This document shows, one piece after another, positions 19,068 through 22,160 of a stretch of 44,173 nt of DNA. The notes below the pieces were generated by a model. That model was not told the DNA's origin, searched no databases, and saw nothing but the letters and a program-made list of their open reading frames with translations. Position numbers and translations under genes: made by a program. Position 1 is the stretch's first letter. Every line of letters starts with the position of its first letter. This stretch comes from Verrucomicrobiota bacterium (GTDB lineage: Bacteria; Verrucomicrobiota; Verrucomicrobiia; Chthoniobacterales; UBA10450): contig QHOV01000079.1 of assembly GCA_003218885.1 (NCBI GenBank), positions 1 to 44,173 on the forward strand, given 5' to 3'.

Positions 19068-19145
19068 TTGTAGAGGCGCTTGTGCCAAGGGCCTGTCGAA
19101 GCGCCAATTGCTAAACTCGGCGTTTGACACAAACGCCGCCACAAC
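19067..19145. repeat. Double-hairpin palindromic element between peptidase genes
   Basis: Begins GTTGTAGAGGCGCTTG and ends CGCCGCCACAAC. The second hairpin GGCGTTTG-ACA-CAAACGCC (19119-19137) is perfect with an 8-bp stem; the first is degenerate. It has the same family and size class as 12101-12169. It starts on the last base of the M3 peptidase stop codon and ends 20 bp before the M28 start. Confidence 0.82.
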
Positions 19146-19165
19146 GTCTGGGTATATTCCGAAAA

Positions 19166-20839
19166 ATGACAGGGCGATTCGCTGCAATCCTTTGCTTCAG
19201 TGCGACGTGGCTCCTCGCGGCCGATGAACTGGCGGAGCGTTTGCAGCCGGCACTGGAGGCGATCACGCCGGACGGCCTGCTCGCGCACATCAAAGTTCTT
19301 GCATCGGATGAATTCGAAGGACGCGCGCCGGGAACGAAAGGCGAAGAACTTTCGGTCAAATACATCACTGATCAGTTCAAACAGATCGAGTTAAAACCGG
19401 GAAATCCGGACGGGACTTACACGCAGGAGGTCCCTCTGGCTGGGATCAAAAGCGAACCGCGAATGTCGTTCGCCGTTGGCGACAAAACGATCGATCTCAA
19501 ATACCCGGATGATTTCATTGCTTCCTCGGCGCGGCTCCAACCCGAAATCAAAATCGACAAGTCAGACATGGTCTATGTCGGATACGGCGTCGTCGCGCCG
19601 GAATACGGCTGGGATGATTACAAAGACGTCGATGTGCGTGGCAAAACGGTGCTGATGTTGATCGGCGATCCGCCGGTGCCCGATCCAAAAGATCCTTCAA
19701 AGCTCGACGACAAAATGTTTAAGGGAAAAGCGATGACCTACTACGGCCGCTGGACGTACAAGTACGAAATCGCAGCGCAAAAAGGCGCGGCCGCTGCGAT
19801 CATCATCCACGAAACCGAACCGGCGGCTTACCCGTGGCAGGTGGTGAGATCGAGCTGGGGCAAAGAAAACTTCGAGCTCGATAATCCGAACAAGAACATG
19901 GATGCGGTTTCGGCGCGTTCATGGATCACGCGCGATGTTGCGAAAAAATTATTCGCCGATTGCGGCCAGGATTTCGATGCGCTGAAAAAATCGGCGGTCG
20001 CAAAAGAATTCCGGCCAGTGCCGCTGAATGCCAAAGCCGACATCGAAATCAAACAGCAGATTCGCTCCTTTAAATCGCACAATGTCATCGGCAAACTCGA
20101 AGGCGACGATCCGAAATTGCGGGACGAATACATTATTTACACTGCCCACTGGGACCATCTCGGGCGGCATCCCGAATTACAGGGCGATCAAATTTTCAAC
20201 GGTGCGATCGACAACGCGTCAGGCGTTGCGTCCGTTATTCAGCTTGCGGCCGCGTTTAACAAATTGAATCCGCCGCCGAAACGGTCGGTGTTGTTTATGG
20301 CAACGACAGCCGAAGAGGCGGGATTGCTCGGCGCGAAGTTTTATGCCGAGCATCCGCTGTATCCAATGGAGAAAACGCTGGCTGATATCAACATCGACGG
20401 CGTGAATCCATGGGGCAAATCGCGCGACTTCGAAGATCTCACCAATGGCAATTCAACCCTAAACGACTTATTGGGCCGGGCCGCGGCGCGACAGGGGCGC
20501 GCGATGAAGCCAAACAGCGAACCGGAGAAAGGCGGCTTCTATCGGGTCGATAGTTTCGAATTCGCCAAAGTCGGTGTCCCTGTGTTGCACGCGGCACGTG
20601 GGATCGACATCATTGGCAAGCCGCCAGATTACGGGAAGCAGAAGCGCGACGAATTTGTCGCGAAACATTATCACCAACCGTCTGATGAAGTTGATCCCAC
20701 CTGGGACCTCTCCGGCGCGGTGCAGGATGTTCAACTTCTGTTCGAAGTCGGCTACCAGGTCGCCAACGCAGACAAATTTCCCGAATGGAAAGCGGGCACT
20801 GAATTCAAAGCAAAACGAGACGCTATGCTGAAGAAGTGA
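19166..20839 (+). CDS. Exported M28-family aminopeptidase with PA domain
   Basis: Zinc aminopeptidase of family M28. Seen: signal peptide at residues about 1-18 (ATG 19166; the upstream extension to 19124 is repeat-derived), a PA-like domain in the middle, then the di-zinc catalytic domain with HWDHLG (His/Asp ligand), [10 protein letters not shown] (bridging Asp), [13 protein letters not shown] (catalytic Glu plus ligand), DINIDGVN and the final His in [11 protein letters not shown]. At 557 residues it is normal for PA-containing M28 enzymes. It follows the exported M3 oligopeptidase in the same direction, so endo- and exopeptidase would together release amino acids outside the cytosol (inference). 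Confidence 0.92.
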
Positions 20840-20873
20840 CTGGATTAGCCGTAAGTTTTCCGTCTAATTCTTG

Positions 20874-21280
20874 TTAGAGCTAATCGTCGCATGCCGAAAA
20901 TCTCTGTAGACTGGTGGGTATTCATCGTGATCGAAGCGGTCGCCGTCATCAGCTGTTGCACTTGGGAGCTTTTCACGTCGGGCATCGGCAAGGCTCTTTG
21001 GATTGCAGAGTTTTTCCTGCTCATGCCGGGCAGCATCACCGTCGCACCGCTTGTTGAGAAGGCGCTTTGGAGCACAGGCTTATCACTCAGAACGATCGGC
21101 ATTGCAGAAATCGCCAGTAGCGTTGCCACAAATGCAGTTGTCTGGTTTCTGGTGTTGCAGATTATTCGTCGCTTCCGGCGCACACACGCGCTTTAACCAA
21201 TCGATGAAGCCAACGGCCCCATTCCGAAACAACTTCAGCGTGTTTGCCACGACACCCTGCCGTGGCTTATCTCTTTCTCG
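20874..21280 (+). mobile_element. Integron-type gene cassette (one gene plus attC)
   Basis: A single open reading frame (20891-21196) is followed at once by a complete attC site, with the gene stop codon inside the first core box, which is standard cassette layout. The right boundary is between G21280 and T21281 (G/TTAGGT). The left boundary is proposed at G20873/T20874 in GTTAGAG, a near-match to the GTTRRRY core. No integrase gene or attI is in this window, so it would be a lone cassette inserted at a secondary site or a remnant of a dispersed array. The right end is well supported; the left end is inferred. Confidence 0.65.
20891..21196 (+). CDS. Cassette-encoded small membrane protein, unknown
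   Basis: 101 residues with three to four hydrophobic segments (about 8-24, 33-52, 60-80 and 80-93) and a basic C-terminal tail (RRFRRTH), so a small polytopic membrane protein. I do not recognise the family. The ATG has no clear ribosome-binding site and the gene has little upstream sequence of its own, as is usual for cassette genes. The TAA stop lies inside the CTTTAAC core of the attC site. Its function and whether it is expressed cannot be read here. Confidence 0.7.
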   Translation: MPKISVDWWVFIVIEAVAVISCCTWELFTSGIGKALWIAEFFLLMPGSITVAPLVEKALWSTGLSLRTIGIAEIASSVATNAVVWFLVLQIIRRFRRTHAL

Positions 21281-21286
21281 TTAGGT
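21191..21286 (+). other. attC recombination site of an integron cassette
   Basis: 96 bp. R'' core CTTTAAC (21191-21197); L'' GATGAAGCCAACGGC (21203-21217); L' GCCGTGGCTTATC (21259-21271); R' core GTTAGGT (21280-21286). The reverse complement of L' is GATAAGCCACGGC. It pairs with L'' except for two extra bases, G21206 and an A at 21212/21213. These are the extrahelical bases that give attC its strand polarity, placed on either side of AAGCC as in classical aadA-type sites. A 41-nt loop separates the arms. Confidence 0.87.
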
Positions 21287-21950
21287 GCAGACGGACGCCG
21301 CATCCCGGGGCTGCGTGGCGGAGTATCACCACTCTTCCGCGGAGGCGCCGCACACAGAAGCGTATCTCTGGCCGCGTATTATCAGCTTATGCGCGGAGTT
21401 GGGCGCGCGACGAGTCGTCGATATTGGGTGCGGGAACGGCGCGCTATGCCGCGAGCTTGCCCGGCGCGGATACGAAGTGGTGGGTTGCGAGCCGAGCGCG
21501 GACGGCGTTCAGTTGGCACGGAGTTCGGCGCCCGAACTGGTCTTCCACCAGCTAGGGGTGGACGACGATCCGTCCGTGGTTGGCAACGAGAGCTTTGACG
21601 TGGCTATCGCTACGGAGGTAATCGAGCATCTCGCTAGACCTCGTAGCCTGCCTCGTTTCACGAAGCAGCTCCTCCGGCCCGGCGGTCACGTTATCATGAG
21701 CACGCCGTATCACGGCTACTTGAAGAATCTTCTTCTTGCGCTCGCCAACAAGTGGGACGCACATCTCAATCCCTTCTGGGACGGCGGACACATCAAGTTC
21801 TGGTCGCGCAAGACTCTCTCGCAGCTGTTGAACGAAGCTGGTTTCCGCGTCGTTCGCTTCATTGGAGCGGGCAGAATACCTTTCCTGTGGAAGAGCATGA
21901 TTATAATTGCACAGAAGCCAGAGAAACCGAGTTGCAAGACGGCGGATTAG
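21285..21950 (+). CDS. Class I SAM-dependent methyltransferase
   Basis: About 220 residues. Seen: motif I VVDIGCGNGALCREL, an acidic second strand end (VGCEPSADGV), IATEVIEHL for motif post-II/III, and LLRPGGHVIMSTPYHGYLKNL typical of ubiquinone/menaquinone-like or sugar/lipid methyltransferases of the Methyltransf_11 type. A WDGGHIKFWSRKTLSQLL segment recurs in O-antigen/capsule-associated methyltransferases; the substrate is unknown. The longest frame starts with GTG at 21285, inside the R' core of the preceding attC site; another GTG at 21315 (residue 11) is possible. I found no second attC after the stop, so it may be a host gene next to the cassette rather than a second cassette. Confidence 0.82.
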   Translation: MQTDAASRGCVAEYHHSSAEAPHTEAYLWPRIISLCAELGARRVVDIGCGNGALCRELARRGYEVVGCEPSADGVQLARSSAPELVFHQLGVDDDPSVVGNESFDVAIATEVIEHLARPRSLPRFTKQLLRPGGHVIMSTPYHGYLKNLLLALANKWDAHLNPFWDGGHIKFWSRKTLSQLLNEAGFRVVRFIGAGRIPFLWKSMIIIAQKPEKPSCKTAD

Positions 21951-21986: not shown

Positions 21987-22091
21987 ATGGGCTCTCTTAA
22001 AAAAAGACGAAAAGCAAAAATTGCCAAGCACAAGCGCCGCAAACGCATGAGGGCGCATCGGCACAAGAAGCGGCTCCGGTACAAGGTGTAA
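21987..22091 (+). CDS. AURKAIP1/COX24-domain small ribosomal protein (bS22-like)
   Basis: A 34-residue protein, extremely basic: it begins MGSLKKRRKAKIAKHKRRK and continues with RMRAHRHKKRLRYKV. This matches the AURKAIP1/COX24 domain known from mitochondrial mS38 and from the tiny bacterial 30S protein bS22 near the decoding centre. Such 30-40 residue versions are easily missed by gene finders. The ATG at 21987 lies 36 bp after the methyltransferase stop. The composition, with 18 Lys/Arg, and the GS-KK-R-KI-KHKRRK-M pattern make the call strong despite the length. Confidence 0.85.
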   Translation: MGSLKKRRKAKIAKHKRRKRMRAHRHKKRLRYKV

Positions 22092-22116
22092 ATCGTCAGC
22101 GCTGGCGCTCGGAAAA

Positions 22117-22160
22117 TGTCCAACGCTCAACGCCGAACGTCCAACGTCCAGTACTGAACA
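22117..22160. repeat. TCCAACG-type direct-repeat tract
   Basis: Words TGTCCAACGCTCAACG, CCGAACGTCCAACGTCC and AGTACTGAACA follow one another. It is the same word family as 9224-9326. It lies in the 237-bp gap before the TPR gene, with no coding frame. Confidence 0.55.

Follow-up and report, generated by a model that had tools for sequence, protein, structure and literature searches.

How does a single integron-type gene cassette come to lie behind a chromosomal housekeeping gene, with no integrase beside it? The question is raised by a 407-bp cassette (20874-21280, + strand) in a 44,173-nucleotide stretch of DNA, referred to here as the window, from a MAG that is 81.6% complete and fragmentary, with 217 contigs adding up to 2.30 Mb. 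The genus is, we infer, a Udaeobacter-like soil lineage within the Chthoniobacterales; a literature search found no paper on integrons in Udaeobacter. A preliminary description of the window had read the locus as a genuine cassette with its attC, lacking an IntI nearby and having a GTTAG left end, and this overall reading is supported by the analysis that follows.

The attC site

The attC candidate occupies positions 21191-21286 of the + strand. It is made up of R'' (CTTTAAC, 21191-21197), L'' (GATGAAGCC, 21203-21211), L' (GGCTTATC, 21264-21271), and R' (GTTAGGT, 21280-21286), and the spacer between R'' and L'' is CAATC. The features that define membership of the attC family are all present, namely the R''/R' and L''/L' boxes, their pairing, the unpaired bases on the L'' side, and the GTTRRRY core. 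The arms GAT-g-AAGCC-a-ACGGC and GCCGT-GGCTT-ATC pair and leave two L''-side bases unpaired, the loop is 41 nt long (21218-21258), and the TAA stop codon of the cassette gene (21194-21196) lies inside R'', all as the preliminary description had it. Every box detail that it named was found, but its term "canonical" does not hold for two of them. R'' begins with C, as it does in the sites of the genus, and the spacer between L' and R' is 8 nt, compared with 8-9 nt in most genus sites and 5-6 nt in the class 1 attCs that were scored.

A covariance model, R1, was built from 12 attCs of relatives in the genus, with the window attC left out. The strong match hoped for from such a model was obtained: R1 gave a single match in the window, exactly at 21191-21286 (77.1 bits, E 1.2e-17). 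The stem of the model contains 24 double compensatory-change cells, compared with 0 of 500 shuffles, indicating that the structure is kept across homologues. R1 also detects class 1 attCs on plasmids, 3' of aadA1, aadB, cmlA, oxa, and aacA type genes (best E 6e-8), and the family assignment is therefore not based on within-genus resemblance alone. Because a MAFFT alignment of class 1 attCs put L' wrongly in some rows, R1 was run on those plasmids without building a second model. Rfam, searched at its gathering threshold, found only a tRNA, and no family at the attC.

Folding of the bottom strand, which had been proposed as a check, gave a mixed result. The attC fold lies within 0.6 kcal/mol on that strand under constrained folding, but in free folding it is not the minimum-energy structure on either strand. 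The attC stem makes up about 5% of the ensemble on the bottom strand and 2.6% on the top strand.

Could a hairpin and a few GTTAG words near a gene end merely resemble an attC by chance? The box-pattern score by itself was not significant, as it was reached in 12 of 200 dinucleotide-shuffled windows. The chance reading is nevertheless refuted, and we give it practically no weight, given the E value of R1 at this site, a 95% identical attC behind a different gene in the sister genome (G032), tandem arrays of the same attC type in relatives, and the textbook attCs picked up by the same model. The 96-nt attC family, whole loop included, recurs at 84-93% identity in different genomes and with cassette genes that are unrelated to one another. 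The peptide encoded by the loop, suggested earlier as a handle for searches, was uninformative, since conservation of the loop DNA extends to sites that follow unrelated genes. On these comparisons, 21191-21286 is a genuine attC, for which recombination by IntI is predicted.

The cassette and the integrons of the genus

The cassette has the organization of an integron gene cassette, with a core site, a single ORF, and an attC that overlaps the end of the ORF. The left core site (GTTAGAG, 20873-20879, + strand; crossover G^TT) is identical to the start of the homologous cassettes at loci L004 and L005, and the cassettes of the window, G014, and G026 all start with GTTAGAG. The ORF (20891-21196, + strand) encodes a membrane protein of 101 amino acids with about three predicted hydrophobic segments; it has no Pfam or NCBIfam match, in agreement with its earlier description as an unknown membrane protein. 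Homologues of this protein, 60% and 52% identical, occur in two of the 34 congeners searched. The homologous cassettes in G014 and G026 are 404 and 409 bp long. DNA identity among the homologous cassettes is 63-69% inside and 42-52% outside, the latter at or near the baseline of about 45% for shuffled flanks, and the GTTAG core sites are where the homology ends. In G014, the homologous gene occupies the first cassette position, next to a divergent 340-aa IntI (TIGR02249, 472 bits, compared with the NCBIfam cut-off of 265) and with further cassettes behind it. In G026, the homologous cassette is at a different genomic place and is followed by another cassette. Judged from these relatives, the cassette is mobile over evolutionary time. 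Third codon positions show the most changes between the cassette-gene homologues, which suggests that the gene is under selection; hydropathy peaks are also seen in the protein.

The preliminary description called the cassette a lone one. This is true of the window, which contains one attC, but not of the MAG, which contains 12. Further homologous sites, whose absence would have spoken against the cassette, are found in each of the 35 genomes of the genus that were searched; at E up to 0.01 the number per genome is between 2 and 47, and G030, G015, and G014 have long tandem arrays. IntI matches occur in 16 of the 35, several of them interrupted; the genus often shows decayed intI genes, and attI sites accompanied by no more than fragments of intI. 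At four loci (L229, L247, L226, and L246) there are separate short copies of the IntI C-terminus beside intI or attI-like sites, some of them adjoining a full intI.

As had been noted, no IntI is encoded in the window, and the MAG (82% complete) has no match at 1e-30; its TIGR02249 matches are to a XerC/D-like ORF and fall below the cut-off. The window locus has no intI adjacent to attI and cassettes, the arrangement of a complete integron. No intI was found in the MAG or in its sister genome, both of which are incomplete assemblies. Contigs carrying IntI often end at the integron, so that copies of intI could be missed.

The insertion site behind the peptidase gene

The cassette follows a gene for an M28-family metallopeptidase (19124-20839, + strand; Pfam Peptidase_M28, E 5e-43), a fixed chromosomal gene that is present in 28 of the 35 genus genomes and whose 3' end bears the insertion site. 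The right flank of the hotspot is an ORF for a very basic 34-aa peptide, MGSLKKRRKAKIAKHKRRKRMRAHRHKKRLRYKV (21987-22088, + strand), which is 85-100% identical in relatives with an intact locus. The peptidase, the 34-aa ORF, a TPR protein, and an AI-2E-like transporter are syntenic in relatives. At about 22115-22150, the window contains short repeats like CAACGCTCAACGCCGAACGTCCAACG, and a similar stretch lies beside intI at locus L137.

The interval between the peptidase and the small ORF ranges from 85 bp in G029, G015, and G016, where it is empty, to 1.7 kb in G032, and its content differs in nearly every genome. If the methyltransferase described below and sister pairs are set aside, the 24 loci have almost no genes in common. 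Cassette polymorphism at an identical locus, on which the preliminary description had made its reading depend, is evident from these differences. In G032, the sister genome by tree, only the attC and the methyltransferase correspond to those of the window, and the cassette gene is another one. In G021 the first gene is a different one, and homology to the window begins behind it, within R' at 21285. An intact attC is also found at the peptidase locus of G005, and other relatives retain half sites. No intI, nor any trace of one, was found at any of the peptidase loci examined. Outgroups from the family and order have the peptidase but lack the synteny around it, and they therefore do not reveal the ancestral state. 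In G021 (L117) and G018 (L098), the C-terminus of the peptidase is interrupted by a small ORF that looks, by eye only, like the GIY-YIG type.

The methyltransferase ORF (class I SAM type, 21285-21950, + strand; Pfam Methyltransf_23, E 4e-27) starts inside R' and is found at the same locus in G032, G021, and G020, behind other first genes. It is either a fixed gene or a second cassette without a recognizable attC. When it was considered as a cassette, no attC was found behind it and no cassette-borne copy was established.

Between the peptidase and the cassette is a 36-bp attI-like site, GGATTAGCCGTAAGTTTTCCGTCTAATTCTTGTTAG (20842-20877, + strand), which begins two bases behind the peptidase stop codon and has the motif GGATTA-N-AATTCTNGTTAG. 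Its best-conserved part is the right 12 bases. Many relatives have GGATTAGAC-hairpin-TCTAATTCTYGTTAG behind the peptidase stop, with differing contents beginning right after it, and in six genomes (G000, G032, G026, G021, G020, and G017) exact matches to the site lie exactly two bases behind the stop. The pattern GGATTA-N(10-71)-AATTCTNGTTAG has 38 matches in the genus, compared with 0 for a reversed-pattern control. Since the motif adjoins intI in several relatives (G007, G003, G020, G013, and G029; intI is intact except in G013, where it is frameshifted), it marks the attI of the genus. One-repeat forms of 36 bp lie beside intI in G029 and beside an intI fragment in G001, and the copy at the peptidase is a 36-bp form of this genus motif. 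By a strict definition an attI has an adjacent intI; none adjoins the peptidase site, despite its likeness to the intI-adjacent sites. The earlier suggestion that the cassette entered at a secondary site is correct as to the GTTAG left end, which is real, but the site is not a random one, being an attI-like motif shared in the genus.

Other copies of the motif were observed. Behind a dienelactone hydrolase gene at L230 (G016:C37, 1501-1536, minus strand) there is a second attI-like site of 36 bp, again two bases from the stop codon; decayed attI-like copies are found at this gene in G014 (L275) and G018 (L274), and none in most other relatives. The window's own genome has a long attI-like site without a detectable intI (L238, G000:C27:3015-3073), and sites whose upstream DNA resembles that of this one occur at G032:C128 (L236) and G026:C178 (L240).

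Origin of the locus and its relation to known systems

In integrons, IntI joins the folded bottom-strand attC of a circular cassette to the G^TT core in attI. The locus is probably best explained by an IntI encoded elsewhere having inserted the cassette into an inherited, integrase-less 36-bp attI-like site, the cargo of which has been repeatedly replaced or lost. The 407-bp cassette would have existed as a circle with its bottom-strand attC folded, and an IntI supplied from another locus in the cell or from the lineage would have recombined it into the site behind the peptidase. The product would have G from the site and TTAGAG from the cassette at the left and R' at the right, and these match the observed ends. 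The site would have been passed down across the genus without an integrase, with its cargo turning over. We infer an action of IntI in trans, with the 36-bp motif as its recognized site; with the same junction between peptidase stop and site in six genomes, and with cargo that differs between sisters, this would be the simplest reading. The lack of an intI match in the two incomplete assemblies and the small share of the attC stem in the bottom-strand ensemble speak against it.

Two other histories have to be considered. The locus could be the relic of a complete integron from which intI was deleted while attI and cassettes remained, as in the Xanthomonas lineages that have lost intI. The decayed and fragmentary integrases of the genus are consistent with this, as are the 36-bp sites beside intI in G029 and beside an intI fragment in G001. 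Because the site occupies the same position in six genomes, any loss of intI must predate their split, and yet sister genomes differ in cargo; this and the lack of any intI trace at the peptidase loci lead us to regard a relic as unlikely. Alternatively, an ancestral array may only have been decaying by deletion, including recombination between near-identical attCs, without recent action of an integrase. Several relatives (G010 and G009) have half attC sites and a short interval, and the 85-bp intervals are empty, which points in this direction, but the attCs of the window and G032 are intact, and the near-absence of common gene content among the 24 loci means that the ancestral array would need to have been very large. 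Decay as the whole history is, in our view, less probable again, although deletion could explain part of the polymorphism. We return to insertion in trans as the preferred reading. Whether it holds generally, with an attI-like docking site uncoupled from the integrase, fixed behind a housekeeping gene genus-wide, used in trans with species-by-species turnover of cargo, and with similar orphan sites elsewhere, we consider an evenly balanced proposition.

The locus would be a naturally occurring hotspot of chromosomal insertion, inherited and lacking an integrase, in an uncultivated genus of soil Verrucomicrobia in which every genome searched has attC and about half have integrases. Natural loci of this kind offer a way to test how cassettes become established outside integrons, and the genus suggests that there is a store of as yet unknown cassette genes.

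Integrase-less cassettes, attG insertion, and fixed loci with lost intI in Xanthomonas are already known (PMC9024848; PMC12444791; Loot et al. 2024, Nat Microbiol, as cited in PMC12444791). A CALIN, in the two-attC sense, has at least two attC sites without intI, and IntegronFinder's single-attC cases can be real (PMC9024848). The window locus, with one attC in 44 kb, is like the latter in having an attC-bearing cassette without a neighboring intI, but it differs from both in being conserved genus-wide, with cargo that differs in nearly every species, and in having an attI-like site. Insertion at attG likewise places cassettes in the chromosome outside an integron (Loot et al. 2024). As that work is cited in PMC12444791, attG is unlike attI and attC and is broadly scattered in E. 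coli, whereas the window site is fixed and resembles the attI of the genus. The attC itself shares with those of class 1 (aadA1, aadB, and others) the R''-L''-loop-L'-R' plan, the AAGCC stem, and the unpaired bases, and the same model finds both; it differs in its longer L'-R' spacer and in a loop sequence that is specific to the genus. The integron and CALIN loci of Xanthomonas (ilvD, lamG/secF) resemble the window locus in having cassettes at conserved chromosomal positions. There, intI is often broken or lost and sits, or sat, at ilvD (PMC12444791), in contrast to the peptidase locus with no trace of intI. What is new here is an integrase-less attI-like site that is inherited in a genus and carries species-specific cargo.
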